A stretch of DNA of 64,000 nt from Bacteroidota bacterium (GTDB taxonomy: Bacteria; Bacteroidota; Bacteroidia; Chitinophagales; Saprospiraceae): the NCBI GenBank assembly GCA_029557915.1, contig JAKQHS010000030.1, positions 186,001 to 250,000 on the forward strand. The letters run 5' to 3'. Both the position numbers and the translations under genes were made by a program. Of the stretch, positions 41,665-61,343 are shown in pieces. A model generated the notes under the pieces. The model made no database searches and was not told the origin of the DNA. It saw only the letters and a list, made by a program, of their open reading frames with translations. The number at the start of each line of letters is the position of its first letter. Within the stretch, counting starts at the first letter, position 1.

Positions 41665-41733
41665 GAGGATTGAGGTTTGAGGTTTGAGGATTGAAGATGG
41701 ATTCGATCAATCCTCAATCCTCACCCCTCACCC
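41665..41733. repeat. Inverted heptamer array (GAGGTTT/GAGGATT) after the MORN stop codon
   Basis: Starting 4 bp after the stop codon, units of GAGGATT or GAGGTTT repeat four times with a fifth variant (41665-41699). Then the complement AATCCTC appears twice, followed by ACCCCTC (41709-41729). The two halves can pair, GAGGATT/AATCCTC being perfect, forming a long imperfect hairpin with a short loop. Period 7. Confidence 0.8.
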
Positions 41734-41740
41734 CAAATAA

Positions 41741-41785
41741 AAAAAGCAGCCGTCATATCTTTATACGTCCAGCTGCTTTAAAAAA
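41741..41785. terminator. Bidirectional hairpin between MORN gene and operon 5
   Basis: AAAGCAGC and GCTGCTTT are separated by a loop of about 21 nt with an inner CGT/ACG pairing. A-tract on the left and T-run on the right (TTTAAAAAA) support termination, best for the leftward operon 5 transcript read into AAAAAA/TTTTTT. Confidence 0.65.
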
Positions 41786-41830
41786 CTTACTCTAAGTCCC
41801 CGCATGGTAGTAGAGCGGAGCGGGAAATTC

Positions 41831-41882
41831 GAGTAGCGAGATACGAGATACGAGATACGAGCAGTGAGAAGCGAGCGGTGAG
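41831..41882. repeat. GAGNNNC heptamer tandem array
   Basis: Seven contiguous 7-bp units: GAGTAGC, GAGATAC three times, GAGCAGT, GAGAAGC, GAGCGGT. It lies between the terminator hairpin and the 3' end of the operon 5 lipoprotein gene. The GAG positions are nearly invariant while the inner three bases vary. Confidence 0.88.
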
Positions 41883-41908
41883 ACCATTGACCACCCACTG
41901 GCCCCTGG

Positions 41909-42811
41909 TTACTGTTTCACCAACTTCACCGTCCCTTCATCCCCATACCCATTCACCCAATGGTACACCAGGGTCTTTGTGGCGGGGTCGTAGTCGCCGC
42001 TTCCGGATACATTTTCCCCAAAGGGTTCCTTGGTATTCTGGAAAAAGACTTCATTGCAACTGAAAGCAATTTCACCCGGGGAGTCTTCCGGTTTTGTAAT
42101 CCCATAGACGTCATACCATTCAAAATAAAGCCCCCCGCTGAAATCGCTGAGTTTGAAAGAGGACGCCGTAAGTTTGGTAATCTTGACCACGATGCCCTTC
42201 ACGGTGGTTTCAGTGGGACAACATCCGTCAGTAGAACTGCCGGTGGCATCCTCTACTTTATAATCTCCTGAAATATCCACCGCCGGGCAGGTGATAAAGG
42301 ACTGAAACTGCAGGGTAAAGGAGGAAGCCGCAGCTCCGTTGATGGATGGGGCAAGGTTCAGGACCGAATCCGTCGCACTCAGTTTTACGTAGGAGGGATA
42401 TACCCGGCCGTCGTTGAGCGTGACCTGCGGATTGAAGGTAAAGTTTGCCACTTTGGAACCATCCCCATACCCAGGCTCCCCAAACAGGGTGGCAAAATCC
42501 GACGCTTTCAATTCCATCCGGACCTTTCCCTGTCCCTGGTCAAAATCGGACTGGGTCAGGGATTTGGCGAGCTTTCTCACGCCCCCGGTGGCCGCAAAAA
42601 TTTGTACGGAGGCCAGGTCTTTGTTTTCCGAGTACAGGTCGAAAGCCAGGAAATCCGTGGCAATTTTATCGGTAAAGATCCCGGTATGCGCCGGATCGAC
42701 GACAATACGCAGGTTTACCCCATTAGCGATCTCCGGGATGCGGATCTTGCTCTCATCCGTACACCTTACCAGAAGGAGTAAGGCCGGTATATAAATAAGA
42801 ATTTTTTTCAT
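41909..42811 (-). CDS. Lipoprotein of Sus-like operon 5
   Basis: 300 residues with an N-terminal hydrophobic helix ending at Cys16 (LLLVRC); the Arg just before the Cys is atypical for a lipobox, so lipidation is likely but not certain. No enzymatic motif is visible. Two regions are beta-rich: residues about 20-150 and a C-terminal domain beginning DISGDYKVEDATGSSTDGCCPTETTVKG, with an unusual Cys-Cys pair, and ending in GSGDYDPATKTLVYHWVNGYGDEGTVKLVK. It lies 42 bp after SusD 5, in the third-gene position. A SusE/F-like surface role is inferred. Confidence 0.78.
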   Translation of the reverse strand: MKKILIYIPALLLLVRCTDESKIRIPEIANGVNLRIVVDPAHTGIFTDKIATDFLAFDLYSENKDLASVQIFAATGGVRKLAKSLTQSDFDQGQGKVRMELKASDFATLFGEPGYGDGSKVANFTFNPQVTLNDGRVYPSYVKLSATDSVLNLAPSINGAAASSFTLQFQSFITCPAVDISGDYKVEDATGSSTDGCCPTETTVKGIVVKITKLTASSFKLSDFSGGLYFEWYDVYGITKPEDSPGEIAFSCNEVFFQNTKEPFGENVSGSGDYDPATKTLVYHWVNGYGDEGTVKLVKQ

Positions 42812-42853
42812 TTTTAGATTTTTTATAAATGATCGTTAAATCGTACCATCCGG

Positions 42854-44461
42854 TTAATCCACATCCCAGAATACCTTGTCCGTATACTGATTGTGCTGTT
42901 TTGCGTTGGGATTGGTCTGCAGGTCATCCCCATTGTACGGAAGGGTGACCGGATAAGGCCGGGACTGTGAGGAATGTACATTTGGATCTTTCGCCGGATC
43001 GCAAATTTTGGGGAACCCGGTTCTGCGGATATCATTATAAGACTCCAGCCCGTTGCCGAAAGAATGGATCCATTTTTGCGTAAGGATCAATTCCAGTTTG
43101 CGGGCATTGTCCGCCGCATCAAACAAGGCCAGGACCTTATCCACATAAGTGGTGATGGCCGCATCCGGGATCACCGGTGCTCCGGCCAGTCTGGCCACGG
43201 CATTGACCTTGGCAAAAGACGAACGGATACCCGTGTTCAGCAAAGCTTTGGCATCTTCGCCCGTATTTTTGGTCAAGGCCAGTTCCGCACGGATAAAGTT
43301 TACATCCGAGGCAGTAAGCAGACGCTGGGCGCCGGCTCCCTTCAGCCCTGAATTGAGGTCCCCATTGGCCCCGCTGCCATTGTCATAGGCTCCCCCGACC
43401 GGCCACAAGCCAAGCAGGGTTTGCGATTTGCCCTGGTCGAAACCTTCATTGGGATCCTTGTCGTAAGAACCAAACCAGATGGAGAGGAAAGATCCGTCCT
43501 GGTAAGAAACCGGGTTTTCGGCCTGCTCGTTGGGCCCAAGCTGATTATAAAAGAAATAAGGGATCCTTGGGTCCGCAATCCCTTCGAGCAAGGTGTTTTC
43601 ACAGGCGGCTTCCCCTTTCATCATCAGGTAGAAATAGGGGCTGATGTAATAGGTGGGATTGCCGAGGGTGTATTCCCTGACAAAACCAGGGTTCCTGTTT
43701 TCAGGGGTGATGGAGGTCGTATAAGCCAGTTCAAAATCTTCACTGGTCCCGGAGATATGGCTTAATTTGAGTAATTCAGCCACTTTGGCGGCGTCGTAAA
43801 GGTCCGTCAGCCGGGCTTTGTTGTACATATTCAACAAGAGGGACCTCCCATACTTTTTCCATTTGTCCATATTTCCCTTGTACACCAGGTCATCGGTGGT
43901 GGGTTTCAGCGTACTGGGTTTATCCAGGTCAGCCAGGGCTTCAAATCCCAGGCGAAACAGATCGCGGTAGATTTCCTTATCGTCGTCGTATTTGGGAAAG
44001 GGCGCTTCGGCCCCCAGGGCGGCTTCGCTGTAAGGCATGTCCCCCCAGAGGTCCACGACCGAACTGAATATCTGCACCTTCAGCAACTTGGCCATGCCCA
44101 CATAGGCGAAGTTGTTGGCCTCCGTTGCTTTTTGAATGATGATGTCGAGGTCAGGCAGGGCCACGGCATACATCTTTTCCCAGGCCTGGGTGAGGGCAAA
44201 TTCATTGGCGGTGATCTTATAATCATCGTGATTGCCCCGTTGCACGGTATGGTGGCTGTACACCGAAACCAACTCTGAAATGCCCGCCGTACCAATACCC
44301 AGTGAACCGAAAACGACGGCCTGGCTGAAGGGCATCAGGTTGTTTACTCTGGCGTCCGTGGGATTATTGGGATCGTCGTTGATATCCAGGTAATCGTCAC
44401 AGGAGGAGATGGAGATCAGACTGAACCCGCATATTAAAAAAATCAATCTGTAAAATTTCAT
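42854..44461 (-). CDS. SusD-like lipoprotein (SusD-like_2 type, operon 5)
   Basis: 535 residues, Cys21 (SLISISSC) then DDYLDINDDPNNPTDARVNNLMP. The usual helical segments are present (YVGMAKLLKVQIFSSVVDLWGDMPYSEAALG; MDKWKKYGRSLLLNMYNKARL), as is the C-terminal QKWIHSFGNGLESYNDIRRTGFP followed by a terminal TDKVFWDVD. It pairs with the SusC gene 17 bp upstream to form a pedal-bin type importer. No substrate-specific feature can be read. Confidence 0.93.
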   Translation of the reverse strand: MKFYRLIFLICGFSLISISSCDDYLDINDDPNNPTDARVNNLMPFSQAVVFGSLGIGTAGISELVSVYSHHTVQRGNHDDYKITANEFALTQAWEKMYAVALPDLDIIIQKATEANNFAYVGMAKLLKVQIFSSVVDLWGDMPYSEAALGAEAPFPKYDDDKEIYRDLFRLGFEALADLDKPSTLKPTTDDLVYKGNMDKWKKYGRSLLLNMYNKARLTDLYDAAKVAELLKLSHISGTSEDFELAYTTSITPENRNPGFVREYTLGNPTYYISPYFYLMMKGEAACENTLLEGIADPRIPYFFYNQLGPNEQAENPVSYQDGSFLSIWFGSYDKDPNEGFDQGKSQTLLGLWPVGGAYDNGSGANGDLNSGLKGAGAQRLLTASDVNFIRAELALTKNTGEDAKALLNTGIRSSFAKVNAVARLAGAPVIPDAAITTYVDKVLALFDAADNARKLELILTQKWIHSFGNGLESYNDIRRTGFPKICDPAKDPNVHSSQSRPYPVTLPYNGDDLQTNPNAKQHNQYTDKVFWDVD

Positions 44462-44478
44462 GACTTTGATTTTAATGG

Positions 44479-47400
44479 TTAAAACTTGAGATTGATGCTG
44501 GCGCCAAACCGTTTGATCGACGGCAGGTTCTGGAATTCAAATCCCTGGTAATTGGAGTCGCCGAAGGTGCTGGTTTCCGGATCCAGGTTGGTGCCTTCGG
44601 GGAAATGCGGCGCCTTATACCAAAGGTTTCTTCCGATCAGTGAAAGAGTAACTCCCCGGATTCCTTTTTTAAACAGGCTGGAAGGAAGGCTGTAGCTCAG
44701 GGACAATTCCCTCAGCCGGTATACCGTAGCGTCAAATACGGACCACTCATCCTGGCTGTTGGTGCCAAAAGTACTGCCAAACCAGAGGTCATTGGTTTCC
44801 ACCATCGTCTGGTTCCGGATGCTGCGTCCGGCTTCATCAAGTATGGGTTTCAGGGTCACCGGATCCCCATAGACGCCGGGGATCACGGCATTTTTTTCTC
44901 GGTCTGCCTGGAAGTTCAAAACCCCGCGTCCCAGCAAAGCGTTCACGGTCTCAGAATAAAGATCCCCACCCTGTCTCCAATCGAAAACGGCGCCGAGGGA
45001 TAATCCTTTCCAGCTTATTGAATTTACAATGCCTACGGTAAAGTCCGGGTTGGGATCTCCCACGATGGCATCATCGATGCCGTTGATGATCTGTCCATTG
45101 GCTTTATCGATCAATAAATTGCCCTCATCGTCCCGGGCGCTTACCGTCCCTTTTAAAATGCCATAAGGCTGACCCACTCTCAAAACCGGGGTAATCCCGC
45201 CGGCGAACAGGGGGCGGATGACCATTTCTTCCGTACCTTCCCGGAGTTCGGTCACGATGGTTTTATACCGTGTAAAATTGGTGATGATGTTCCAGTTAAA
45301 ATTTTTCTTGGATATGGGGTTCAGCCTGAGCGATACTTCCGATCCTTTGGTTTGCAGTGCCCCGAAATTGGTAAGCAACTGGTCGTAACCCGATACGGTC
45401 GGCAAGGCCAACTGGGAGATCTGGTCCACGGAAGTACTCTTGAAAACAGAGACATTGAGCTCTATCCTGCCCTTCAGGAATTCGAGGTCCAAACCGGCTT
45501 CAAGATCGGTGGTAAACTCCGGTTTGAGGTCGGGGTCAAACAAGGTATTGGACAAGGTGGAACTGGCTATGCCTGCAAAAGGAAAATCAATATCCCGGAT
45601 ACCCGCAGTGAGGTTGTCGGGCTCGCCCAGGTTGAGCAGGTATATGGGTTTCAGGGAATAGGGAGCTGCCGGGCTTCCCACTTTAGACCAATTCATCCTG
45701 ATCTTACCGAAATTGAGGATCGGGTTGTTGATCATATTGAAAGCCTCTGAAAAAATAAAGGCTACGCTGGCCGACGGATAGAAATAATTGTTGTTTTTGA
45801 CAGGCAGGGTGGATGACCAGTCATTCCGTCCCGATAGCGTGAGAAAAAGATATTGTTTGTAATCGGTAGTGAACTCACCAAAAAGACCAAACAGCCTTTG
45901 TTTGGAGAAGTTGCCGCCGGCTGAAACCTGGTTGACGGTATTGTCTACATCAAGGATATTGAAATCGAGCATCTGGGTGCCGGAAATACCCTGGGCCTTG
46001 CTGGTCCTTTCATTGAGGTTGTGGCCGGCCCTTGCTTCGATGGCCCAACTGTCATTAAACCGGTGCTTGGCTGTAAAGATTAAGGTCGATTCTATTTCTC
46101 TGAAATTGGTATTCAGGTCGGTTACGCTGCCGAGTCCCCCAGCTCCCCGGGAGCCTGGCCTGAACCATTCGAGATCACCCTGGTTATACTGGTTCAATCC
46201 TGCCCGGTAATCCACATCCAGCCATTTAGATAAGGTATACCCCGCATTCACATTGACCACGAAACGGTTCACATTGGACTCAAATCCGTTATACCTGGCA
46301 GACCAATAGGGATTGTCGGCCTGGCCCCTGGCGACCATAAACAGGCTCTCCCGGGTCAAGGGATCCTCATAGGGCTGGCCCTGGAGATCCCAGTTTCTGC
46401 CCTGGTAAAGGGTCCTGGCCATAAAGGAAGAAGTACTGACGGACCCGATCGCTCCGCCTTGGAGGCCTTCCTGGATTGAATTTACATAAGATAAGTTGGC
46501 GCCCATCCTCAGGCCCGATTCAAAATTGCTGTTTGCACCAAGGGAAAGAGAGGTTTTATCAAAATTGCTGTTGGGGAAGATGCCCGCGTGATCGACCCTT
46601 GAAAAAGTCAGGGCCATATTGGTGTTTTGATTGCCTCCGCTGATGGTGATCGAATTGTCCATAAGCCTGCCGGTCTCGAAGACGTCTTTTACATTATTGG
46701 GATAAGCCTGGTAAGGAACTTTCTGGGTGACTCTCGGGTCTCCGGATTGCACCAACCGGTTGAAACTCGCCGCATAACCGGCGCCCAGATACCAATGGTT
46801 GATGGAATCAATGGTGGGATAAGGGACGGTCCCTTTAAATGGGGCTCCCCAGGACCCGTTGGCTTGCTGATAGAGAAAACCGGTGCCGGTTCCGTACTTG
46901 TTTTGAAAATCGGGAAGGGAAGCGATTTTTTCAAAGTTAAGGCCAGAGGTCAATTCAACCTTCATCCTGTTTTCCCCCTTTTTAATAGTTCCGGTTTTGG
47001 TGGTGATCACCACTACCCCCCTGGAAGCTCTTGAGCCATAAAGGGCGGCGGCCGTAGCGCCTTTCAATACGCTGACGCTTTCGATGTTATTTGGGTCCAG
47101 GTCGGCCAGCCTGTTGGCATAGGCGCCTCCGCCGGTCAGCTGAAAGGAAACCCCATTGGTGGTGGCATCAAACGGGATCCCGTCCACCACATAGAGGGCC
47201 TGATTGTTACCGAAGAATGATTTGAGGCCGCGGATGGTCAACCGCGTGGCGCTGCCCGGCTGGGAACTGGAGGCGTTGATGTTGACGCCTGCAATTTTGC
47301 CCTGCATGGCCCTCAGGGGGTCTGTTTCCCCAACGCGCTGGATCTCCTCCCCTTTGATTTCCTCGATGGCATAACCGATTTCTTTTTTCTCCCGGGTAAT

Positions 47401-47721: not shown

Positions 47722-48125
47722 ATCAATGCATTTAAGAGTTAACAGGAAATAAAACCCAGGGCCTGATGAATGCAGTTGGCATTCACAGACAATTAAAAAT
47801 GCCTTATAAGGCCCGGTAGAGTAAGGTTTTTAAAAAGATTGAAATCACGCGCCCCTGAAACCAAAAGCCATTGACTTCAATGTAATTATTTAGAAGAGTC
47901 TGATTCAGGGAGTCCGGATGTTCAGCAGGTATTCTTGAACCCCTCAAAAATAAATGCGGTTCCGGTTTTTTAATATCTTTTCACAAGTCTTAACGAAAAT
48001 AAAATATTTACCGCTGCTTTCACCCTTTGTTGATGTGATGAAAAAACCCGGCTTATTTTTTTATAAATATGGAAATCCCCCATTTGGGGTTAGCAGGAGT
48101 GAAAGCATCCACCTCAGCAAGGTAA

Positions 48126-48153
48126 GGTTAAAGGTTAATGGTTAAAGGTTAAA
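48126..48153. repeat. GGTTAAA heptamer array (4 units)
   Basis: GGTTAAA, GGTTAAT, GGTTAAA, GGTTAAA in direct succession, with partial units on both sides (GGTAA before, GG after). Period 7, inside the SusC 5-pdxJ gap. Confidence 0.8.
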
Positions 48154-48332
48154 GGAAGATAAGTACAAGGCGGATGGCTTTCTATCATGATGGTGGATTG
48201 CTCAATAATCCGGGAGTGGCAAGATGGACAGCTTCCCACTGAAAATTATTTGCGAATTGCTGCAGGCTGATGGCCCCTTGCCCTGAAGGATGAATTTTGA
48301 GTACCAAATGGAAATTACAGGGACTTGCCAAC

Positions 48333-48416
48333 TGACTACTGACTATTGACTATTGACTACTGACTACTGACTACTGACTACTGACTACTGACTACTGACT
48401 ACTGACTACTGACTAC
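48333..48416. repeat. TGACTAC heptamer array (12 units) after pdxJ
   Basis: Twelve back-to-back 7-bp units over 84 bp. Ten are identical TGACTAC, while units 2 and 3 are TGACTAT. A degenerate continuation (CCGACTACTAC) runs into the pdxJ stop codon at 48428-48430. The near-perfect uniformity indicates recent expansion by strand slippage. It is not a CRISPR array: there are no spacers. Confidence 0.95.
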
Positions 48417-48427
48417 TGAACCGACTA

Positions 48428-49141
48428 CTACTTCAATTCCTGAAGATAAAGTCCTATTGTCTTTTCCAGTCCCATATACAAGGCATCGCAGATCAGGGCA
48501 TGCCCGATGGATACCTCGAGCAATCCAGGGACCTGATCTTTATAAAACTTCAGATTGTGGAGGTTGAGATCATGACCCGCATTGAGCCCCAGACCGCATT
48601 CGGCGGCCACAAGGGCGGCTTCGCGGTGCGGCTTTACCGAGGCCTCGGGATCATCCGGAAACCGGTGCGCGTAAGGCCCGGTGTATAATTCAATGCGGTC
48701 GGTCCCGCTCCGGGCGGCTCCTTCCACCATCCTTGGATTTGCATCCACAAAAAGGGAAGTCCGGATCCCTTTGGATTTTAATGCCTTCACCACATCCTCC
48801 AGGAAGGCCGAATGAAGGACGGTATCCCATCCGTGATCGGAAGTCAATGCGCCGGGCGGATCGGGTACAAGGGTCACCTGGTCCGGCCGGTGGCTGAGTA
48901 CCCGGTCCATGAACTCCTGGGAGGGATAACCTTCAATATTCAGTTCTGTCGCCACGGCTTCTTTCAATGGCTGGATATCGCTGTAGCGAATATGGCGCTG
49001 GTCCGGCCTGGGGTGAATCGTGATCCCTTCGGCACCAAACCGTTCACAGTCGCGGGCCACCTGGATCAGGTCTGGCATATTGCCCCCTCTTGAATTGCGG
49101 ATCAGGGCGATTTTATTGATATTGACGCTGAGTCGGGTCAT
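48428..49141 (-). CDS. pdxJ: Pyridoxine 5'-phosphate synthase
   Basis: 237 residues, the normal size. TIM-barrel with the PdxJ hallmarks: LSVNINKIALIRNSRGG near the start, GAEGITIHPRPDQRHIR, NIEGYPS, LVPDPPGALTSDHGWD and the C-terminal GLGLNAGHDLNLHNL and EVSIGHALICDAL. It condenses 1-deoxyxylulose 5-phosphate with 3-amino-2-oxopropyl phosphate, giving pyridoxine 5'-phosphate in the DXP-dependent vitamin B6 route. It is divergent from the CPBP protease gene, with 81 bp between starts. Confidence 0.97.
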   Translation of the reverse strand: MTRLSVNINKIALIRNSRGGNMPDLIQVARDCERFGAEGITIHPRPDQRHIRYSDIQPLKEAVATELNIEGYPSQEFMDRVLSHRPDQVTLVPDPPGALTSDHGWDTVLHSAFLEDVVKALKSKGIRTSLFVDANPRMVEGAARSGTDRIELYTGPYAHRFPDDPEASVKPHREAALVAAECGLGLNAGHDLNLHNLKFYKDQVPGLLEVSIGHALICDALYMGLEKTIGLYLQELK

Positions 49142-49222
49142 GGCGGGGACAGGTTTAGAATCTCATTTCAGCCCGGAACATCAACCCGGGGTTTGAAAAA
49201 CCAAATATACTATCTTCGCCCG

Positions 49223-52346: not shown

Positions 52347-52352
52347 GGTCCG

Positions 52353-52507: not shown

Positions 52508-52515
52508 CACTTATC

Positions 52516-53142
52516 TCATTTCTCCTTCAAGTCCAGGTCCTCTAAATCCTCCAGGATTTCATCCGAAATAATGTCTTTGAGTTTTTCGATCGTGACCTGG
52601 TCTGCTTCGGCATTCAGGACCAGACGGTTTTTAAAAATCAGGGCCAGGGAACTGGTATGGTCTTTCCGGTTGGACTTCTCAAAAACCTTGTATCCTTTCC
52701 AGGTGGCGGATTTTTCATATCCGTCGTCGTCCTCGTGGTATATATCGGTGAGGGACCAGGCGGCGATGCCAAGGAGCGCGGCGCTAAAACCCCCGAAATC
52801 GATCAGGCTGAGCTTTATGGATTTATCCCCTTTTTCGTACCGGGCTTCGGCTTTGTTCATTTTGAAGCCCATCACCCCGACGCCTTCTCCGGTCAGGTCT
52901 TGACGGTCCATGCCGTCCAGGTCCTTTGGGAGGAGGGCTTTCAGATCGGCCAGATCAACCAGCCGGACCTCCTTACCCCCCGGGTCCACCATGTTTTTAA
53001 TATCCTCCGCAAACTTATCGGCGCTGGATTCAATGCTTTCAGCCAGCTCCTCTTCGCGGTTGGCTTCTTCCTTTTCCTGCCTGGATTTACAGGAAGCGCC
53101 CAGGATCAGGAGGGCAAAAGCTAATAGAAACAGATTTTTCAT
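52516..53142 (-). CDS. Lipoprotein of unknown function, coiled-coil N-terminus
   Basis: 208 residues from the ATG at 53142 (MKNLFLLAFALLILGASC; Cys18 lipobox LGAS-C). A charged helical stretch follows (KSRQEKEEANREEELAESIESSADKFAEDIKNMV), then an alpha/beta region (RLVDLADLKALLPKDLDGMDRQDLTGEGVGVMGFKMNKAEARYEKGDKSIKLSLIDFGG). A YEKSATWKGYKVFEKSNRKDHTSSLALIFKNRLVLNAEAD segment and an acidic C-terminus complete it. I do not recognise the family. It is convergent with the YjjG-like gene and divergent from the S9 peptidase, so it is probably a single-gene unit. Confidence 0.82.
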   Translation of the reverse strand: MKNLFLLAFALLILGASCKSRQEKEEANREEELAESIESSADKFAEDIKNMVDPGGKEVRLVDLADLKALLPKDLDGMDRQDLTGEGVGVMGFKMNKAEARYEKGDKSIKLSLIDFGGFSAALLGIAAWSLTDIYHEDDDGYEKSATWKGYKVFEKSNRKDHTSSLALIFKNRLVLNAEADQVTIEKLKDIISDEILEDLEDLDLKEK

Positions 53143-53289
53143 GGTTTGTAATTTATATTTAAGAAAACTGGCTGCCGCCCCATAAAATTCCATCCATATG
53201 AAAATATCGGATCAACTTCAACTAGACGAAGACCAATAACACCTATTATCGGAAAATATTATAATTTTCGTTCAAACCATTGAATAAAA

Positions 53290-55734
53290 ATGATCCGTAT
53301 CCTCAACCACAACCACAACCTCAACCTCAACCTCAACCTCAACCTTAACCTTAACCTTAACCTCATCCTCATCCTTAACCTCCTCTTCCTCCTATCCTTT
53401 ACTTCTCCCGCTTTCACCCAAAACACCCTCAGCCCGCTGACCATCGAAAAGATCATGCGCGACCCCAGGTGGATCGGAACCTCCCCCACCAATATCCGCT
53501 GGAGTCCTGACAGCCGTTTTATCTATTTCCACTGGAACCCCGGCGCGGGTCCCGTGGACTCTCTGTACCGCTATTCCCTATCGGAATCGAAGTTGGAAAA
53601 AGTGGATGAAAGATCGGCGGCGCAATTAGTCACTGCGGATGAAATCAGCTATACCAGTGATCGCAGCGCCTGGACCTGGTCCCAAAGAGGCAATGTCTAT
53701 TACCAGTCCGATTCGATGGCCCAGCCGGTAAAAATCACCCATACCCTCGGCCGGGAATGGAATCCCCGTTTTTCGTTTAATGACCGGAAAATTGTATTTA
53801 CCCTGGATGACAATTTGTATAGCTGGGAGATCGCATCCGGCTCGCTGAGCCAACTTACCCATTTTATTAAAAGCGCCGCTCCGCGGGAATCGCGGCCCAG
53901 CCAGCAGGAGGCCTGGTTGAAAAATGACCAGTTGCGGGAGTTTGAGATCCTCCGCCAACGCCGGGAAAGACAGGACAGTCTGCAATCCTTAAATAAAAGG
54001 CTTGAAGCTTCTGATCTCATCAAACCCATCTACCTCGGAGATAAGAACCTGGGCGGACTCCAGATCAGTCCCGACGGGCGTTTTGTATTTTATGTGTTGT
54101 CCAGGGTCAACCGGGCCAAGGCCACCGTGGTTCCGTCTTTTGTCACGGAAAGCGGCTTTACCGACAACCTTCCTGCCCGTGCCAAAGTGGGGGATCCCGC
54201 CGATCCACAGGAACTCATGATCCTGGACTTGCACCGGGATTCCACCTATGGGGTTTCCGTCAAAAACCTTTCGGGCATAAAAGATATCCCAACTTTTATA
54301 GGTGAATACCTGGAACTGATGAAGTCCTATCAGAAAGATTCCGCGGAAAGGGCTTTGCGTTTTTCAAACCTTCAGTGGTCGCCGGAGGGCCGGAAGGCCG
54401 TCGTGGATATCCGGGCCCAGGATAATAAAGACCGCTGGATTTGCAGCCTTGACCCAGCCACGGGGAGACTGAGCCTGCTGGACCGTCAGCATGACGAGGC
54501 CTGGATCGGGGGTCCCGGCATCGGGGGCGGTTTTGGCGGTGGCAACTCCGGTTGGCTGAATGAAGAAGAATTCTGGTTTCAAAGTGAACGGACCGGCTAT
54601 TCCCATCTTTACAAAATCCATATTTCCAGCCTGGCCATGACCCCGCTCACCATGGGCAATTTCGAAATTCTGAGAGCGACCTTGTCCCCCGACCGAAATC
54701 TTTTTACCCTTACGACCAATGAAGTTCATCCCGGCGAACAACAGGTATACCATCTCCCGGTCCAGGGCGGCCAGGCTCTCAGGATCACCCATAAGACCGG
54801 AGGACACCAGGCTTTTCCTTCCCCGGACGGCAAACATCTGGCCTTTCTCTATTCATACAGCAACATTCCCTGGGAATTGTACGTGCAGGAAAACAAACCA
54901 GACGCCCCCCCGAAACAAATCACGGATAAAGCCTCCAGCCCTGAATTTAAAACCTATTCCTGGCGCATTCCCGAAGGAATCACCTTCACTGCGAGGGATG
55001 AGGCCCAAGTCCATGCCCGGCTCTACCGACCGGCCAAAAAAACAAATAATAAAGCCGCTGTGATCTTCGTACACGGAGCCGGCTATCTGCAAAACGCCCA
55101 TCGATGGTGGTCCAGTTATTTCCGGGAATACCTCTTCCACAACCTGCTTGCGGACCAGGGGTATACCGTGTTGGACATGGATTATCGCGGAAGCGCAGGA
55201 TATGGTCGCGACTGGCGCACCGGTATATACCGCCACATGGGAGGCAAGGACCTGACCGATCATGTGGACGGGGCCAGGTATCTCGCGGAGCAGCATGGGG
55301 TAAATCCGAAAAAAATCGGGATTTATGGAGGCTCCTACGGCGGATTCATTACCCTGATGGGCCTGTTCACCACCCCTGACGTTTTTGCGGCAGGCGCCGC
55401 CCTCCGCCCTGTGACGGACTGGGCCCAATACAATCATGGTTATACTTCAAACATTCTCAACGAACCCTTCACGGACAGCCTGGCCTACCGCAGGTCTTCG
55501 CCGTTTTATTACGCGGAGGGGCTTAAAAACCCGCTGCTCATCTGCCACGGGATGGTCGACGTCAATGTGCATTACCAGGATGCGGTGAAACTGGCCCAGC
55601 GCCTGATCGAACTAAAAAAAGAAAACTGGGAGCTTGCTTCCTACCCCATGGAAGACCACGGTTTCGTGGAGCCGACGAGCTGGATGGATGAGTATAAGAG
55701 GATTCTCAACTTGTTTAATAAATGGTTGAGGTGA
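53290..55734 (+). CDS. S9-family (prolyl oligopeptidase / DPP-IV-like) serine peptidase, repeat-encoded signal peptide
   Basis: 814 residues. Catalytic triad: Ser682 in IYGGSYGGF, Asp757 in HGMVDVNVHY and His790 in MEDHGF. The N-terminal two thirds form a beta-propeller of the DPP-IV/WD40 type (WSPDSRFIYF, ISPDGRFVFYV, LSPDRNLFTL repeats), which gates peptide access. The N-terminus is odd: residues 6-31 are encoded by 13 tandem 6-bp units (AACCTC-like, 53305-53382), giving alternating Asn/His and Leu before LLFLLSFTSPAFTQ, a plausible signal-peptide end. The next Met (near 53452) would delete the export signal, so 53290 is favoured. Likely periplasmic or secreted. Confidence 0.9.
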   Translation: MIRILNHNHNLNLNLNLNLNLNLNLILILNLLFLLSFTSPAFTQNTLSPLTIEKIMRDPRWIGTSPTNIRWSPDSRFIYFHWNPGAGPVDSLYRYSLSESKLEKVDERSAAQLVTADEISYTSDRSAWTWSQRGNVYYQSDSMAQPVKITHTLGREWNPRFSFNDRKIVFTLDDNLYSWEIASGSLSQLTHFIKSAAPRESRPSQQEAWLKNDQLREFEILRQRRERQDSLQSLNKRLEASDLIKPIYLGDKNLGGLQISPDGRFVFYVLSRVNRAKATVVPSFVTESGFTDNLPARAKVGDPADPQELMILDLHRDSTYGVSVKNLSGIKDIPTFIGEYLELMKSYQKDSAERALRFSNLQWSPEGRKAVVDIRAQDNKDRWICSLDPATGRLSLLDRQHDEAWIGGPGIGGGFGGGNSGWLNEEEFWFQSERTGYSHLYKIHISSLAMTPLTMGNFEILRATLSPDRNLFTLTTNEVHPGEQQVYHLPVQGGQALRITHKTGGHQAFPSPDGKHLAFLYSYSNIPWELYVQENKPDAPPKQITDKASSPEFKTYSWRIPEGITFTARDEAQVHARLYRPAKKTNNKAAVIFVHGAGYLQNAHRWWSSYFREYLFHNLLADQGYTVLDMDYRGSAGYGRDWRTGIYRHMGGKDLTDHVDGARYLAEQHGVNPKKIGIYGGSYGGFITLMGLFTTPDVFAAGAALRPVTDWAQYNHGYTSNILNEPFTDSLAYRRSSPFYYAEGLKNPLLICHGMVDVNVHYQDAVKLAQRLIELKKENWELASYPMEDHGFVEPTSWMDEYKRILNLFNKWLR
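53305..53382. repeat. Hexanucleotide microsatellite inside the S9 peptidase signal peptide
   Basis: Thirteen consecutive 6-bp units: AACCAC twice, AACCTC four times, AACCTT three times, AACCTC, ATCCTC, ATCCTT, AACCTC. Because 6 is a multiple of 3, length changes keep frame but alter the number of Asn-Leu pairs in the n/h-region. Confidence 0.95.
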
Positions 55735-55740
55735 GTTACT

Positions 55741-55788
55741 CAGTTAGCCAGTTTGTCAGTTAGCTAGTTTGTCAGTTTGAAAGTTTGA
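55741..55788. repeat. Octamer tandem array (CAGTTTGT-type) after the S9 peptidase gene
   Basis: Six units of 8 bp: CAGTTAGC, CAGTTTGT, CAGTTAGC, TAGTTTGT, CAGTTTGA, AAGTTTGA, starting 6 bp after the TGA stop codon. This is the only period-8 array; the others are period 7. Confidence 0.85.
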
Positions 55789-55848
55789 AAATCCACTTTC
55801 TATTCCCAGGCAGCCAACCACTAATCACCATCCACCATCCACCATAAA

Positions 55849-56442
55849 ATGCCAAACCCTCATATCGAAATCATCGACAGCCAAATCCTCTCGGACCAAT
55901 GGTATGTATTGAAAAAAATAACCTTTCGCCAGGAAGACCGGCATGGCCATTGGCATACGGTAAGCCGGGAAGCTTATGACCGGGGGAACGGGGCGGTGAT
56001 CCTGCTTTACCATAAAGCAAAAAAAACCGTGGTCCTGACCCGCCAATTCCGGATGCCCACCTATTTAAACGGCAATGACAGCGGCATGCTGATCGAAGCC
56101 TGCGCCGGCCTGCTGGACCATGACGAACCGGAGGACTGCATCCGCAAGGAAACCGAAGAAGAAACCGGATTTGTCGTAAGGGAGGTGCGCAAGATCTTTG
56201 AAGCCTACATGTCGCCGGGCTCGGTCACCGAGGTCCTTCATTTTTTTGTGGCAGAATACGACGATGCCATGAAAAAAACGCAAGGGGGCGGGCTTGCCCG
56301 GGACCATGAACTCATCGAGGTGCTTGAGATCCCTTTTGATCAAAGCCTGGGGATGATCGCGAGCGGTGAAATCCGGGATGCAAAAACCATTCTGTTGCTG
56401 CAATATGCCGCCCTGAATAATTTGTTTGAAAACGATAAATAA
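55849..56442 (+). CDS. Nudix hydrolase, GDP-mannose pyrophosphatase NudK-like
   Basis: 197 residues. A Nudix-box-like stretch is visible (CAGLLDHDEPEDCIRKETEEETGF), with the usual box Arg replaced by Lys. YMSPGSVTEVLHFFVAEYD after the box is the NudK/ADP-ribose pyrophosphatase-type specificity loop. Such enzymes cleave nucleoside-diphosphate sugars to NMP and sugar phosphate, with divalent metals held by the Glu cluster. The gene begins 114 bp after the S9 peptidase and is followed by the DUF1593 gene. Confidence 0.88.
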   Translation: MPNPHIEIIDSQILSDQWYVLKKITFRQEDRHGHWHTVSREAYDRGNGAVILLYHKAKKTVVLTRQFRMPTYLNGNDSGMLIEACAGLLDHDEPEDCIRKETEEETGFVVREVRKIFEAYMSPGSVTEVLHFFVAEYDDAMKKTQGGGLARDHELIEVLEIPFDQSLGMIASGEIRDAKTILLLQYAALNNLFENDK

Positions 56443-56452
56443 ATCCTCTGTC

Positions 56453-57877
56453 ATGAGCGCTGGTTGCAGACTTTTACTTTCACTTTTCCTTTTCATTTTC
56501 GGTGTTCCCCTGGCCCTGCTTGGCGAGAAGGAATCCAAAACCCGGGTGGTGGTGCTTACCGACATCGAAGCCGACCCGGATGACCATCAGTCCCTGATCC
56601 GCCTGTTATTGTATTCCAATCAGCTTAAAGTGGAGGGACTGATCGCCACTACCTCCATTCATCAGAAAAACAGGGTCTCTCCGGAAAGCATTCACGAAGT
56701 CCTGATGGCCTACCAAAAAGTTCAGCCCAACCTGCTCAGGCATGAAAGCGGCTTTCCTTCCTATGCCTACCTGAAATCGAAGGTAAAGAGCGGCTTAGCC
56801 GTTTACGGGATGGAGGGCGTGGGGCCTGGAAGGGATTCGGAAGGCTCGGAATGGATCATCCGGGTGCTTGAAAAACCGGATCCCGGTCCGGTTTGGTTTT
56901 CGGTCTGGGGCGGGCCCAATTGCCTGGCCCAGGCCCTCTGGAAGATCCGCAATACCCGGAAGCCGGAAGAAGCGGTAAAGTTGTACGACAAAATCAGGAT
57001 CTATACTATTTCCGACCAGGATGATTCCGGTCCCTGGATCCGGAATGAATTCAAGAACCTGTTTTTTATCGTGAGCCCGGGATACAATTATTCAAATGCA
57101 AGCTGGACAGGCATTACCAGGGTTTACCCGGGATCGGAGGCGGTCACGACCAACCGGCAATGGCTTGCGGAACATATCCAGCAGGGCCATGGTCCATTGG
57201 GGGCGGCTTATCCGGATGTGGCCTATGGCATGGAGGGGGACACCCCCGCTTTTCTGGGCCTCCTCCCGAATGGGCTCAACGACCCGGAACAGCCGGCTTT
57301 CGGAGGATGGGGAGGGCGGTATGAGCTGAAGATACCGGTGTTCAGGGATTCCAACTCGGGCCCTTTTCGGAGAGAAAACTGGCCCCAGGACCAACCGGAA
57401 ACCAGGCCCATCTGGACCAATGCGGCGGACTCGGTGTATGCCCCATCCGAACAAAAAGGGTATAAAAGCGACCAGGCTACGATCTGGCGATGGAGGACGG
57501 AGTTTCAGCATGATTTCGCGGCGCGGATGGACTGGTGCTTCAAACCCTTTCACCAGGCCAATCACCCTCCCCGTCCCGCACTGGCCCACGCGGACCGGCT
57601 TACCGTGAAATCCGGTGAGCTTTTCCACCTCAATGCCAAAGGCACGGAAGATCCGGACGGGGATTCCATGAGTTTTCTGTGGTTTCAGTATAAGGAAGCG
57701 GGCACCTTTGACGGGTATATCCCTTTCAGGCCGTATTCCCCGAACCTCTATGATCTTCCGGTAAAAGCCCCTGACGTGACCAGTCCACAAACGGTCCATT
57801 TTATACTCAAGGTCACCGATAAAGGCAGCCCGGCCCTGACCCGCTATAAACGGGTGATTGTGACCATTAATCCCTGA
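56453..57877 (+). CDS. DUF1593 / Sde182-type nucleoside-hydrolase-like secreted protein
   Basis: About 474 residues from the ATG at 56453 (MSAGCRLLLSLFLFIFGVPLALLG, signal peptide). A TTG 27 bp upstream lies inside the Nudix gene and is not needed. The N-terminal domain has VVVLTDIEADPDDHQSLIRLLLYSN, an aspartate-rich Ca-site motif like that of nucleoside hydrolases, and continues through VWFSVWGGPNCLAQAL. The last 100 residues (LTVKSGELFHLNAKGTEDPDGDSMSFLW...) form an Ig-like beta-domain as in Sde182 proteins linked to polysaccharide use. Substrate is not known. Confidence 0.85.
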   Translation: MSAGCRLLLSLFLFIFGVPLALLGEKESKTRVVVLTDIEADPDDHQSLIRLLLYSNQLKVEGLIATTSIHQKNRVSPESIHEVLMAYQKVQPNLLRHESGFPSYAYLKSKVKSGLAVYGMEGVGPGRDSEGSEWIIRVLEKPDPGPVWFSVWGGPNCLAQALWKIRNTRKPEEAVKLYDKIRIYTISDQDDSGPWIRNEFKNLFFIVSPGYNYSNASWTGITRVYPGSEAVTTNRQWLAEHIQQGHGPLGAAYPDVAYGMEGDTPAFLGLLPNGLNDPEQPAFGGWGGRYELKIPVFRDSNSGPFRRENWPQDQPETRPIWTNAADSVYAPSEQKGYKSDQATIWRWRTEFQHDFAARMDWCFKPFHQANHPPRPALAHADRLTVKSGELFHLNAKGTEDPDGDSMSFLWFQYKEAGTFDGYIPFRPYSPNLYDLPVKAPDVTSPQTVHFILKVTDKGSPALTRYKRVIVTINP

Positions 57878-57927
57878 AACCGGTAAACCATTTTCGTCCG
57901 GGTTTGTTTATTGATTTATTTTAGCCG

Positions 57928-58548
57928 ATGAAGTATTTCCTGCTGATCATAGCCCTCTTATTAATCCTTATGTTGACAAAAGTTATCCGCCTGAGCACCC
58001 TGATCACCCTGATGAATGTGCCTTTCACCCGCTACGCTTCCGCCCAAAAGCCCCAGGAGGCAAAGGCAGGTACCCAGACCTTGTATGATTTTAAACTAAA
58101 AAAACTGGAAGACGGGTCCGTGCTCGACTTGTCCCGGTACAAAGGCAAAAAAGTAGTCCTGCTCAATGTGGCTTCCGAATGCGGCTACACCCCCCAATAT
58201 GCCGATTGGCAAAAATTTTATGAAGCTTACGGCAAAAAAACAGTGGTGATCGGCATTCCCTCCAATGAATTCGGAGGGCAGGAGCCGGGTTCAAACCAGG
58301 ACATTTCCACCTTTTGCCAGAAAAATTACGGGGTCACCTTCCCTATGGCTGAGAAGGCCGTGGTGAAAGGCGAAGGCAAACATCCGTTGTATCAATGGCT
58401 TACCACCAAATCCCTCAACGGATGGAACGACAAGGAACCCGGTTGGAATTTCTGCAAATACGTCATCAACGAAAAAGGCCAGCTCACCCATTTTTTCGGT
58501 TCCAAGATCTTACCCACGGATTCCGAATTCCTTGAAGCGGTGAAATGA
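57928..58548 (+). CDS. Glutathione peroxidase-family thiol peroxidase with N-terminal anchor
   Basis: 206 residues. A hydrophobic N-terminal segment (FLLIIALLLILMLTKVI) indicates export or a membrane anchor, not usual in cytosolic versions. Core motifs: LLNVASECGYTPQY with Cys85 as the peroxidatic residue, IPSNEFGGQEPGS with the Gln, and PGWNFCKYVIN. It reduces peroxides, more likely with thioredoxin-like partners than with glutathione in Bacteroidota (inference). The stop codon overlaps the first unit of a heptamer array. Confidence 0.92.
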   Translation: MKYFLLIIALLLILMLTKVIRLSTLITLMNVPFTRYASAQKPQEAKAGTQTLYDFKLKKLEDGSVLDLSRYKGKKVVLLNVASECGYTPQYADWQKFYEAYGKKTVVIGIPSNEFGGQEPGSNQDISTFCQKNYGVTFPMAEKAVVKGEGKHPLYQWLTTKSLNGWNDKEPGWNFCKYVINEKGQLTHFFGSKILPTDSEFLEAVK

Positions 58549-58609
58549 GACTCGAGTGGCGAGCAACGAGTGGCGAGCAACGAGTTGCGAGTAGCGAGCA
58601 ACGAGCAGC
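58547..58609. repeat. GAGNNNC heptamer tandem array (9 units) at the glutathione peroxidase stop
   Basis: Nine contiguous 7-bp units: GAGACTC, GAGTGGC, GAGCAAC, GAGTGGC, GAGCAAC, GAGTTGC, GAGTAGC, GAGCAAC, GAGCAGC. The first shares two bases with the TGA stop. The same consensus is seen at 41831, and inverted at 61288. Downstream, 58617-58645 is C/A-rich (CCAACCACCAATCAC) and resembles 55815-55830. Confidence 0.9.
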
Positions 58610-58641
58610 CAGCTTACCCAACACCACCCACCAACCACCAA

Positions 58642-59841
58642 TCACTCATACAAAAGATACTTCTCCCTCACCTTCTTAAAGGCATCCAGGTCCGCTTTCC
58701 AGCTTGCCCTGATTTCTTCCTCCGTTTTTCCGGCTTTGATCTGGGCCATGAGGACATCGTTGCCCGCGAGCCGGTTGAAAAAATTATTGGCGAGGAAAAA
58801 AGGGTCCTTGTCTTTCATATCCGCATAGAATTGGATCAGCCATTTCAGGTTGATCCTTTTCCAGGACATGATCTCCTCAATGGAAAGGTTGCTGAGGTTG
58901 TGCCCGTTACAAAGCTGGTGGAGCAGCTTGGGATTTTTTGCGCCTGGCCTGCTTACCGGGGTGAACTGGTAGTCTCCTTTGCTGTATTTGGGGTGGCCAA
59001 AAATGACAAATGGCGCTTCCGTACCCCTCCCTTCGCTGCAATTGGTCCCCTCGAAAAAACAGATGGAAGGATACAGCAGGGTGGACCTGAGCGAGGGGAT
59101 ATTGGGAGAAGGCCGGACCGGCAAGTCATAAGTCATGGTATGGTCATAATTTGCGCAGGGGATGACTTTTAAAGCGCACTGCGCCCCGTTGGACAACCAT
59201 TTTTCCCCGTTCACCATGAGGGCATATTCCCCGATGGACATGCCATAGACCACGGGTACGGGATGCATGCCGATAAATGATTTGAATTCCGGCCGGAGCA
59301 CCGGGCCATCGACAAAATAACCATTGGGATTGGGCCGGTCCAGAATGATCAGGGGTTTGTTGTTTTCCGCGCAGGCTTCCATGAGCAGGGTCATCGTGGA
59401 GATATAAGTATAGAAGCGCACGCCGATGTCCTGGATATCAAAAACAAGAAGGTCAAGGCCGGCCAGGTCTTCCGGAGCTGGTTTTCTTTTCTCCCCATAG
59501 AGCGAGACCAGGAGAATTCCGGTCCGGGGGTCCGTCGTGGTGGCCACTTTTTCTCCCGCATCCGCTTCGCCCCGGAATCCATGTTCCGGTGAGAAAATTT
59601 TTTCAATCCGGACTCCCTGCTTCAATAGCGTATCGACGAGGTGGACGGCGCCCACCATGGAAGTCTGGTTGACTACCAGGCCCACTTTTTTGCCTTTTAA
59701 TTCCCGGATATAGGATTGAAAGGAATGGGCGGCAGGCAGGGGATTCGAATTTCCTTGCGGAAACCCCTCTCCTTTCCTGGAAGCGCCGCAGGCAATCCAG
59801 ACCAGGGCCAGCAAGAGGCTTAATTTTATGGATGGATTCAT
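58642..59841 (-). CDS. namZ: Exo-beta-N-acetylmuramidase, NamZ/DUF1343 family lipoprotein
   Basis: 399 residues. The hydrophobic start ends at a possible lipid-bearing Cys18 (LVWIAC). DUF1343 signatures: KKVGLVVNQTSMVG, IFSPEHGFRGEADAGEKV, LLVSLYGEKRKP, DLLVFDIQDIGVRFYTYISTM, ILDRPNPNGYFVDGPVL, the MHPVPVVYGMSIGEYA segment and LRSTLLYPSICFFEGTNCSEGRGT. NamZ proteins release N-acetylmuramic acid from the non-reducing ends of peptidoglycan, so a cell-wall salvage role is inferred. It is divergent from the exonuclease gene. Confidence 0.9.
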   Translation of the reverse strand: MNPSIKLSLLLALVWIACGASRKGEGFPQGNSNPLPAAHSFQSYIRELKGKKVGLVVNQTSMVGAVHLVDTLLKQGVRIEKIFSPEHGFRGEADAGEKVATTTDPRTGILLVSLYGEKRKPAPEDLAGLDLLVFDIQDIGVRFYTYISTMTLLMEACAENNKPLIILDRPNPNGYFVDGPVLRPEFKSFIGMHPVPVVYGMSIGEYALMVNGEKWLSNGAQCALKVIPCANYDHTMTYDLPVRPSPNIPSLRSTLLYPSICFFEGTNCSEGRGTEAPFVIFGHPKYSKGDYQFTPVSRPGAKNPKLLHQLCNGHNLSNLSIEEIMSWKRINLKWLIQFYADMKDKDPFFLANNFFNRLAGNDVLMAQIKAGKTEEEIRASWKADLDAFKKVREKYLLYE

Positions 59842-59856
59842 CTGGTTGTATTACGT

Positions 59857-59864
59857 TAATTTTG
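59857..59864 (+). promoter_or_regulatory. Bacteroidota -7 element (TAATTTTG) upstream of the exonuclease-GIY-YIG gene
   Basis: TAATTTTG matches TAnnTTTG exactly, 29 bp before the ATG at 59894, in the 52-bp gap divergent from namZ. No clear -33 TTG at the expected spacing. Confidence 0.4.
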
Positions 59865-59893
59865 AATGCGTAATATAATGCCTTAATTCTAAA

Positions 59894-61288
59894 ATGGAGA
59901 CGAAATACGCGGTCATTGATATTGAAACCACCGGAGGCTTGCCCCAACGGGACCGCATCATCGAGATCGGCATCATCCTTTATGACGGGGAAAAAGAAAC
60001 CGGCCGGTTCGGGAGCCTGATCGACCCCGGCATTTCCATTCCTCCCCAGATCACCCGGTTGACGGGAATCACCACCGAAATGGTATCCGGCCAGCCCAAA
60101 TTTTACGAGGTCGCGAAAGAAATCGTTCAGTTCACCCAGGGGGCGGTCTTTGTAGCCCATAACGTCCGTTTTGATTACAATTTTATCCGGGAAGAATTTT
60201 CCCGCCTGGGGTATACCTATACCCGCAAACAGTTGTGCACAAAAAGACTGGCCAGGCTCAGCCTCCCCGGCCTCGGATCCTACAGTCTCGAATCGTTGAT
60301 CCGCCACCTGGATATCCAGGTGAAACACAGACACCGGGCGCTCGATGACGCCTATGCCGCCTGTGCCGTGATGGATCATGTTTTCCGCCTGGAAGAAAAC
60401 CGCGAAAAAGCCATCGAACTCATCCACCAGGGTGTAAAGGAATCCCGACTCCCCGCCTCCATCAGCCTGGACTACCTGCACAGCCTGCCCGAAGCCTGCG
60501 GAATCTATTATTTCCACAACCGCAGCGGCGACGTGATCTATGTGGGTAAAAGCAAAAACATCAAGGACCGGGTCCTTCAGCATTTTGCCGACCATACCCA
60601 GAAAGCGGTCCACCTTCAACAACAGGTGGACAGCATCACTTACGAGATCACGGGCAGCGAACTTCTGGCCCTCCTGAGGGAAAATGAAGAAATAAAAAAA
60701 ATAAAACCTGAAATCAACCGGGCGCTCCGGAAAAAAGAACTTCCATACGGCATCTATGCCACGGTCGATGAAAAAGGCTTTATCCGTTTTGAAGTCGACA
60801 AAGCCAGGCCTGTAAATGAAAACACGGTTTTGATAAAAAAATTCAGCACCCCGGCCAATGCCAGGGCCTTTCTTTCCGCCGCGGTGGAAAGGTATGGGCT
60901 CTGTCAAAAACTGACCAGCCTTGAACGTTCCGGGGGCTCTTGTTTCCATTACCAGATCGGTAAATGCCGTGGGGCCTGCCAGGGCCTGGAACCACCGGAA
61001 TCCTATAATGAGAGGGCCCTGCTGCTGCAGGAAAAACTGGTCTTTCCCCAAAAAACATTCCTGGTCACCGAATCCGGACGAAGCCAGGGGGAAACGACGG
61101 TTTTATGTTTTCGCCAGGGCATCTGTATCGGTTACCAGTATAAGGATGAATACAGCGGGTCTTTCCTGAGTGAAGAGGACCTGATCCCCTTGCCGGCCGA
61201 TGAGGACACTCCCTCGATCCTGAGGAATTATTTTTCCAAAAATCCGAGGGCGGTGTGGAAGGAGTGGAGGGTGGAGGCTGGAAATTAG
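59894..61288 (+). CDS. DnaQ-like 3'-5' exonuclease fused to a GIY-YIG nuclease
   Basis: 464 residues in two catalytic parts. Residues about 5-165 are a DEDDh exonuclease: VIDIETTGG, VAHNVRFDYNFI and the HRALDDAYAA box. Residues about 190-280 are a UvrC/Cho-type GIY-YIG endonuclease: ACGIYYFHNRSGDVIYVGKSKNIKDRVLQHF. A C-terminal region has CHYQIG/CRGAC-like cysteines (CFHYQIGKCRGACQGLEPPESY), as in UvrC proteins. The pairing suggests incision followed by trimming in DNA repair (inference). The stop codon is embedded in the first unit of a heptamer array. Confidence 0.9.
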   Translation: METKYAVIDIETTGGLPQRDRIIEIGIILYDGEKETGRFGSLIDPGISIPPQITRLTGITTEMVSGQPKFYEVAKEIVQFTQGAVFVAHNVRFDYNFIREEFSRLGYTYTRKQLCTKRLARLSLPGLGSYSLESLIRHLDIQVKHRHRALDDAYAACAVMDHVFRLEENREKAIELIHQGVKESRLPASISLDYLHSLPEACGIYYFHNRSGDVIYVGKSKNIKDRVLQHFADHTQKAVHLQQQVDSITYEITGSELLALLRENEEIKKIKPEINRALRKKELPYGIYATVDEKGFIRFEVDKARPVNENTVLIKKFSTPANARAFLSAAVERYGLCQKLTSLERSGGSCFHYQIGKCRGACQGLEPPESYNERALLLQEKLVFPQKTFLVTESGRSQGETTVLCFRQGICIGYQYKDEYSGSFLSEEDLIPLPADEDTPSILRNYFSKNPRAVWKEWRVEAGN

Positions 61289-61343
61289 AAGCTCGAAGCT
61301 CGAAGCTGGAAGCTCGTAGCTGGTATCTCGTATCTCGTATCTA
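61288..61343. repeat. Heptamer array spanning exactly from one stop codon to the opposite one
   Basis: Eight 7-bp units: GAAGCTC twice, GAAGCTG, GAAGCTC, GTAGCTG, GTATCTC twice, GTATCTA. The reverse complement reads GAGATAC, CAGCTAC, GAGCTTC, i.e. the same GAGNNNC family in inverted orientation. It begins at the last base of the exonuclease TAG and ends on the photolyase stop (61341-61343). Confidence 0.92.

Follow-up and report, generated by a model that had tools for sequence, protein, structure and literature searches.

Short tandem arrays with 7–9-nt units at gene ends, and an excess of TAG stop codons there, in a Saprospiraceae genome

What places short tandem repeats, with a unit of about seven nucleotides, directly after the stop codons of several genes of one bacterium? 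The question is raised by a 64,000-nt stretch of DNA from a Bacteroidota bacterium (Saprospiraceae), referred to below as the window, which spans bases 186001-250000 of contig C36 in the host assembly G000 (5.04 Mb, 209 contigs, a draft 98.8% complete). A sequence-only reading had reported such arrays at five gene ends, those of a MORN-repeat gene, pdxJ, an S9 peptidase gene, a glutathione peroxidase gene and the exonuclease/photolyase pair, and all five were confirmed by their coordinates (table 1). It had also held that the units differ and that period and position agree, which proved right, with the addition that the units form families recurring across contigs. The arrays are real and extend well beyond the window, with 155 intergenic examples in 28% of the genome. 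We give about even credence to the reading that they are lineage-specific repeats that occupy unconstrained DNA as far as gene ends, and into these, often supplying the stop codon and favoring the TAG-rich orientation.

Periods, positions and stop codons

Genome-scale counts were made on 1.417 Mb of G000 (28%, window included, 9,917 N bases), in which a hexamer-based finder called 1058 genes, in agreement with the long open reading frames (ORFs) at 40-64 kb of the window. Arrays were detected as runs of self-matches at lag p, with a score of at least 12 unless otherwise given. Counts of position cover periods 7, 8, 9, 14, 16, and 21 in intergenic regions of at least 20 bp, free of N and lying between two called genes; 167 intergenic arrays of these periods were detected, of which 155 were kept, in 751 regions, and 12 dropped. 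The 80 best named relatives of the pdxJ of G000 (59-68% identity) are nearly all Bacteroidota, the top three Saprospiraceae. The comparison genomes belong to the same genus (G001, with 63-75% identity to G000 over matches of at least 300 bases), to the same family (G004), and to another Bacteroidota (G075). Because some G000 contigs and several G004 and G075 stretches were chosen from lists of array matches, array densities per Mb may be inflated.

Period 7, the one singled out by the sequence-only reading, was indeed the commonest, with 80 intergenic arrays, but periods 8 (34) and 9 (13) were present as well, along with periods 6 (8), 10 (4), 14 (21), 16 (10), and 21 (9); no intergenic array of period 2-5, 11 or 13 reached score 12 in the G000 sample. 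Coding DNA, which makes up 87% of the sample, held three arrays each at periods 7, 8, and 9 and seven at period 6. Chance and base composition were rejected as the source of the arrays: an order-3 Markov model of intergenic DNA gave none of period 2-30 in five replicates, compared with 41, 17, and 9 real arrays of periods 7, 8, and 9 in the first 1.02 Mb (score of at least 14). By strict consensus, 49 different period-7 units were found, and 17 cores, chosen after the arrays were seen, account for 87 of the 99 arrays in the first sample. The commonest units, read on either strand, are AATAGTC, ACTACTG, AATCCTC, and ACCATCC, which contain no GGG; units with GGG are rarer (AACCCTC 5, ACCACCC 2, AAGGGTG 2). 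Local invention of units was rejected as their sole origin, since families recur across contigs.

The arrays are unevenly distributed with respect to gene direction, occurring in 38/115 convergent, 54/473 co-directional, and 12/163 divergent regions (convergent vs. divergent, P = 6e-8). They also lie close to stops: 67 of the 155 were at most 15 nt from a stop codon, against 15.6 ± 3.7 for random placement in all regions and 33.9 ± 3.8 for random placement within their own region, and 11 were at most 15 nt from a start, against 18.3 ± 4.0 expected. The excess near stops that had been proposed from the window alone is therefore found at the scale of 28% of the genome, with no excess at starts and an additional one in convergent regions. 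The outcome that would have refuted the sequence-only reading, arrays equally frequent at every intergenic position or not enriched near stops, was thus not seen in this sample. In co-directional regions pooled over the first 1.02 Mb, staying 100-150 nt off starts explains most of the proximity to stops. Twenty-three arrays run 1-23 nt into the end of a gene.

The stop codons at these ends are unusual. TAG, the rarest stop overall in the G000 sample, terminates 35/56 array-abutted gene ends, compared with 169/1045 among all genes (Fisher P = 6e-16), and among 60 array-edge rows it is the stop in 26 of the 33 where the array itself contains TAG. Counted over 182 arrays, among them those in coding DNA, TAG triplets occupy 4.5% of positions on the G-rich strand and 0.8% on the C-rich one. 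It is the G-rich strand that reads out of the gene in arrays at most 20 nt from a stop, in 54/68 cases in G000, 12/12 in G004, and 7/7 in G075, compared with 133/285 array-free gene ends of G000; for arrays 21-80 nt from stops, the tendency in G000 is the reverse (5 vs. 13). At starts (up to 80 nt), the G-rich strand likewise points away from the gene, into the intergenic DNA (26/30 in G000, 16/17 in G004, 1/1 in G075). However, array-free upstream DNA has the same sign (324/450 in G000, 142/202 in G004; P = 0.09 for G000 arrays and, pooled, 43/48 with P = 0.009), so that the polarity at starts is mostly ordinary leader composition, and the idea of one polarity rule covering both starts and stops is weakened.

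The same loci in G001 allow a direct comparison, and the picture is mixed: of four array-abutted genes, two have changed to TAG in G000 and two have not. The exonuclease gene ends in ...ILRNYFSKNPRAVWKEWRVEAGN followed by TAG in G000, and its G001 homolog in ...ILRNYLAKNQVKKKEIALFV followed by TAA; the photolyase stop is TAG in G000 and TGA in G001. NamZ ends in TGA in G000, where its stop lies about 50 nt from an array, and in TAG in G001. As judged from these sequences, a stop supplied by the array would fit two of the four comparable genes, and the argument is carried by the genome-wide TAG excess.

Related genomes and the origin of the arrays

The main family is abundant in the host's lineage. 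Its pattern, AGTCARTAGTCARTAGTCA, has 141 + 149 overlapping matches in G000 and 0 in G001; elsewhere it was matched in 2/19 other relatives and in 14/394 other genomes of the phylum sample. A privileged status of the AGTCANN word across the phylum was not supported, as AGTCARTAGTCARTAGTCA occurs in 15/395 genomes, G000 included, and its reversed control in 24. In 37 kb of G001, a single A/T-rich repeat reached the score, where four arrays would be expected at the G000 density. The intervals that hold arrays in G000 are occupied differently in G001: there is other sequence between glutathione peroxidase and NamZ (three ORFs, none called as a gene by the finder), as there is in the exonuclease-photolyase interval (one called gene), and the S9 peptidase and NUDIX genes are not adjacent. 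Gene order in G001 is kept at 0/3 testable array junctions and 9/10 others in the window and adjoining DNA, and at 2/2 array junctions and 5/6 others in three other tiles, giving totals of 2/5 vs. 14/16, small numbers in which contig ends hide cases and which we do not use as proof. Convergent gene pairs are generally less conserved. In G001 (L195, 3108-4041), two adjacent small ORFs between glutathione peroxidase and another ORF look duplicated by eye, and G000 has only an array there.

The excess at stops is not confined to the host: arrays at most 15 nt from a stop number 12/52 in G004 (expected 4.6 ± 2.1) and 7/13 in G075 (expected 1.1 ± 1.0). In G004, whose units are different, arrays are also found near starts (9 vs. 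4.8 ± 2.1). In G004 (L178, L179, and L235), period-8 arrays of the CGTGTTGT/TGTGTTGA type are dense, and one, 124 bp long, begins at a contig end.

A scenario that may account for much of this pattern combines selection with array-supplied stops. Arrays of 7-9-nt units, in recurring, lineage-specific families whose core is fixed and in which a few positions vary, would grow and turn over in unconstrained DNA, probably through replication slippage and probably as neutral sequence. Purifying selection would exclude them from coding sequence and, in G000, mostly from divergent promoter regions, so that they would come to fill convergent regions and the DNA just past stops. An array that reaches or overruns a gene end could replace the old stop together with some of the last codons, and the gene would then terminate at whichever in-frame stop the array offers first, favoring the TAG-rich strand orientation. 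We infer that the change went in this direction, the array replacing the stop.

Several results weigh against this reading. G004 lacks the convergent bias (arrays in 4/44 convergent, 28/208 co-directional, and 7/47 divergent regions), and TAG terminates 0/6 array-abutted ends in G004 and 1/6 in G075. In G000 itself, TAG is raised even where the array contains none (10/27 rows). The glutathione peroxidase stop is TGA in both G000 and G001, and that of the S9 peptidase is TGA in G000, with the array 5 nt on, and TAG in array-free G001; these two genes brought our confidence down from slightly better than even to even. Moreover, in 8 of the 13 array-bearing co-directional regions of at least 300 bp, an array lies at most 8 nt from the stop, where 0.55-1.0 are expected, and in none of the 13 does one lie at most 8 nt from the start; avoidance of starts thus fails for long regions, and the explanation may have to include nucleation at the gene end or selection in favor of it. 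Finally, slippage alone would yield locally invented units rather than families common to several contigs.

The beginning of arrays at the stop even in long regions is what one would expect of functional 3'-end elements, that is, G-rich repeats that are transcribed, act in termination, protection of the mRNA 3' end or ribosome release, and are kept at stops by selection. Their sense-strand polarity at stops in three genomes (73/87) and the near-stop excess shared by G004 and G075 point the same way. We nevertheless consider such a role rather unlikely, because about 5% of gene ends have an array (56/1045), the units are as diverse as the 49 consensus sequences indicate, and in the 37 kb of G001 no more than the one A/T-rich repeat reached the score. 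Terminator-like hairpins, scored with a crude detector, were about as frequent at array ends as at array-free ends (6/56 vs. 10/80 in convergent and 4/53 vs. 27/249 in co-directional regions), and with the same detector the proposal that arrays replace terminators was rejected. Less probable still is a mobile or recombination process that spreads the arrays and prefers gene ends, or TAG, as its targets. It would explain families common to different contigs, the abundance of the main family in one lineage and its absence from G001, of the same genus, and the TAG stop of the S9 peptidase in array-free G001. Against it, the G001 exonuclease and photolyase homologs end in TAA and TGA rather than TAG; 80 pdxJ orthologs end in TAA in 48, TGA in 17, and TAG in 15 cases; and no associated element was noticed, though no search aimed at one was made.

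The arrangement of neighboring arrays bears on two further proposals. Among arrays at most 60 nt apart, 15 pairs are head-to-head, 3 tail-to-tail (P = 0.008), and 13 in the same direction, and several head-to-head neighbors belong to different families, with gaps of 0-9 nt. This would suit a telomere-like addition at broken ends, in which G-rich repeats are added to the 3' strand of both ends before these are joined, leaving head-to-head arrays between genes; the G-rich strand running from the gene edge outward at both stops and starts and the different gene content of G001 at 3/5 testable array sites are also in line with it. The proposal is very unlikely all the same, since no reverse transcriptase domain (PF00078, E ≤ 0.001) was found in the G000 draft, a result on which telomerase-like addition was rejected, the polarity at starts is mostly background, and gene order is kept at 2/5 G001 sites. 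Ku is present in G000 and was not found in array-bearing G004, and non-homologous end joining was likewise rejected as a shared cause. Slightly less probable again, in our estimate, is that inverted pairs form the arms of large RNA or DNA hairpins serving as terminators. Inverted same-family pairs do occur in some regions, for example at 41664-41734 of the window, but they are 6 of the 51 neighboring G000 pairs (20 direct, 25 unrelated), and more than one array is found in only 33/104 array-bearing regions; with different families head-to-head, a simple hairpin is insufficient. Remnants of broken genes behind the arrays were rejected: in a search with the sample's own proteins, 1/13 long regions matched, within the array-encoded tail of another ORF.

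A more speculative possibility, which we hold improbable and just short of mobile spread in likelihood, is that gene ends are the birth sites of arrays, a process tied to the gene boundary (break healing or replication-transcription conflict) laying G-rich 7-9-nt repeats 5' to 3' outward, erasing the old intergenic DNA and the stop, and giving a new stop. If this were true, the outward polarity seen in three Bacteroidota, in Xanthomonas and in Nostoc would be one general rule.

Arrays and genes of the window

The genes flanking arrays in the window are, by Pfam, MORN, pdxJ, S9 peptidase, NUDIX, glutathione peroxidase, NamZ, exonuclease/GIY-YIG, and photolyase (table 1).

Table 1. Tandem arrays and array-abutted genes of the window (window coordinates).
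Feature	Coordinates	Strand	Basis
MORN-repeat gene, TAA stop at 41658-41660	40971..41660	+	ORF; Pfam MORN 3.9e-14
TTGAGGN heptamer array, 3 nt between MORN-gene stop and array	41664..41694	+	
Inverted partner array (TCCTCAA on +), 12 nt from TTGAGGN array, head-to-head	41707..41734	-	
CGAGATA heptamer array	41837..41861	+	
AAGGTTA heptamer array, downstream region of pdxJ	48124..48155	+	
AGTCAGT/AGTCAAT array (ACTGACT on +), 12.7 copies, 8 nt past pdxJ TAG stop	48331..48419	-	
pdxJ, TAG stop	48428..49141	-	Pfam PdxJ 5.7e-89
S9 peptidase gene, TGA stop	53290..55734	+	Pfam Peptidase_S9 1.8e-47
TCAGTTAG/CAGTTTG array, period 8/16, 5 nt after S9 peptidase TGA	55740..55790	+	
CACCATC heptamer array, 3 nt upstream of NUDIX gene start, C-rich on coding strand	55826..55845	+	
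Glutathione peroxidase gene, TGA stop	57928..58548	+	Pfam GSHPx 2.2e-31
CGAGNNN heptamer array, period 7/14/21, 4 nt after glutathione peroxidase TGA	58553..58607	+	
Exonuclease/GIY-YIG gene, TAG stop at array edge	59894..61288	+	Pfam RNase_T 1.9e-35
Heptamer array spanning stop to stop, unit shifts from GAAGCTC to GTATCTC	61288..61342	.	
Photolyase gene, TAG stop at opposite array edge; start may be 62780	61341..62828	-	Pfam FAD_binding_7 1.8e-45

The pdxJ array decays in regularity toward the TAG stop. The array between the exonuclease and photolyase genes overlaps their TAG stops by 1 and 2 nt, and the last eight or so codons of the exonuclease gene have a period-7 character (row 61264-61282 of the tandem repeats finder, TRF). 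The absence of period-7 arrays from the first 41 kb, also put forward by the sequence-only reading, stands at score 12, where the detector finds no array of period 6, 7, 8, 9, 14, 16 or 21 in window 1-41663; at its lowest score, however, TRF lists a row of period 8 at 15114-15153 that is degenerate (75% matches), as well as two-copy rows of periods 7 and 8. The gap belongs to a longer array-poor stretch of C36 (about 95.8-227.7 kb), which holds one period-8 array. That heptamers give seven-residue peptide repeats follows from 7 being coprime with 3 and is minor; what arrays do to genes in this sample is contribute stop codons and, in some cases, the final codons. At C36 263067-264785, close to the end of the contig, the final 21 or so codons of a called ORF fall within a CGAGNNN array, so that its predicted C-terminus is array-encoded.

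The S9 peptidase ORF contains a period-6 array (CCTCAA/CCTTAA) within its first predicted codons (window 53304-53375), and its true start may lie 3' of this array, because the G001 homolog aligns only from residue 41. Period-6 arrays recur in the sample (the 8 intergenic and 7 coding ones counted above), several of them near gene starts. Elsewhere in G000, a 558-bp intergenic region of contig C25 (213526-214084) combines one TAGGATT array, located at the stop, with five inverted AATCCTA arrays at spacings of 9-42 nt in an unusually regular layout, and an 867-bp region of contig C28 (63435-64302) consists largely of intermixed GAGGATT, AAGTTAG, and AAGCTCG arrays, as if families arose stepwise from each other.

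Comparison with known repeats

An over-representation of heptamers in bacteria is known, without a known origin or function. Several 7-bp tandem families per genome were reportedly described in cyanobacteria, as short tandemly repeated repetitive (STRR) heptanucleotides, by Mazel and colleagues in 1990. G000 resembles these in having several such families in one genome, in a host of another phylum. The STRR heptanucleotides of Calothrix are mentioned in the accessible text of Rehm et al. (2015; PMC4692102), which also cites Mrazek et al. (2007) for the over-representation of heptameric simple sequence repeats in bacteria and for a hypothesis relating period 7 to polymerase size. A subset of short tandem repeats of 6-9 bp is stated to be highly enriched in prokaryotic phyla (PMC12699852). 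Both sets share the range of unit lengths with G000 and, as far as these sources were available, are statistics over genomes in which stop codons are not a subject.

Direct repeats of the TAACTGA heptamer were described in Beggiatoaceae, Cyanobacteria, and five Bacteroidetes (MacGregor 2015; PMC4679880). From the available part of that paper, they are mainly intergenic, mixed with other heptamers and patchy between lineages, being missing at matching sites of some close relatives, and in these respects, as in unit length, they are like the G000 arrays. They differ in lying mostly just upstream of starts in their main genome, whereas the G000 arrays lie at stops and have other units; TAACTGA is absent from the 25 commonest of the 49 period-7 consensus units.

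The closest published counterparts are the G-rich heptamers GGGNATC of Xanthomonas and GGGGA(C/T)T of Nostoc (Rehm et al. 2015; PMC4692102). According to the accessible parts of that study, they are over-represented in noncoding DNA and under-represented in ORFs and between divergent genes, lie at most 50 bp from stops on the coding strand (some overlapping the stop) and from starts on the noncoding strand, and vary in copy number, with a preference for four units, their function being described as not known. The GGG in these units would allow a G-quadruplex to form. A search of titles and abstract openings, with subscription journals mostly outside its coverage, found no literature on stop codon usage at such arrays.

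What the G000 signature adds, with TAG at array edges, polarity and head-to-head junctions of mixed families, is a way to make the birth and growth of arrays testable across close strains, and it suggests a route by which repeats rewrite stop codons and protein tails. It is also a warning for annotation, as arrays generate open frames and array-coded tails. Like the Xanthomonas and Nostoc repeats, the G000 arrays are tandem 7-nt intergenic units near stops on the coding strand and rare between divergent genes; G004 shares the excess near stops, but its divergent regions are not avoided. Unlike the published repeats, as far as the accessible text describes them, the G000 arrays belong to numerous families side by side, with units of 7, 8, and 9 nt, the commonest of them without GGG, and an excess of TAG at abutted ends and array-like last codons were measured in G000. 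Position and strand bias of heptamers are thus already published for Xanthomonas and Nostoc, and it is the tie to stop codons that is unusually clear in G000.

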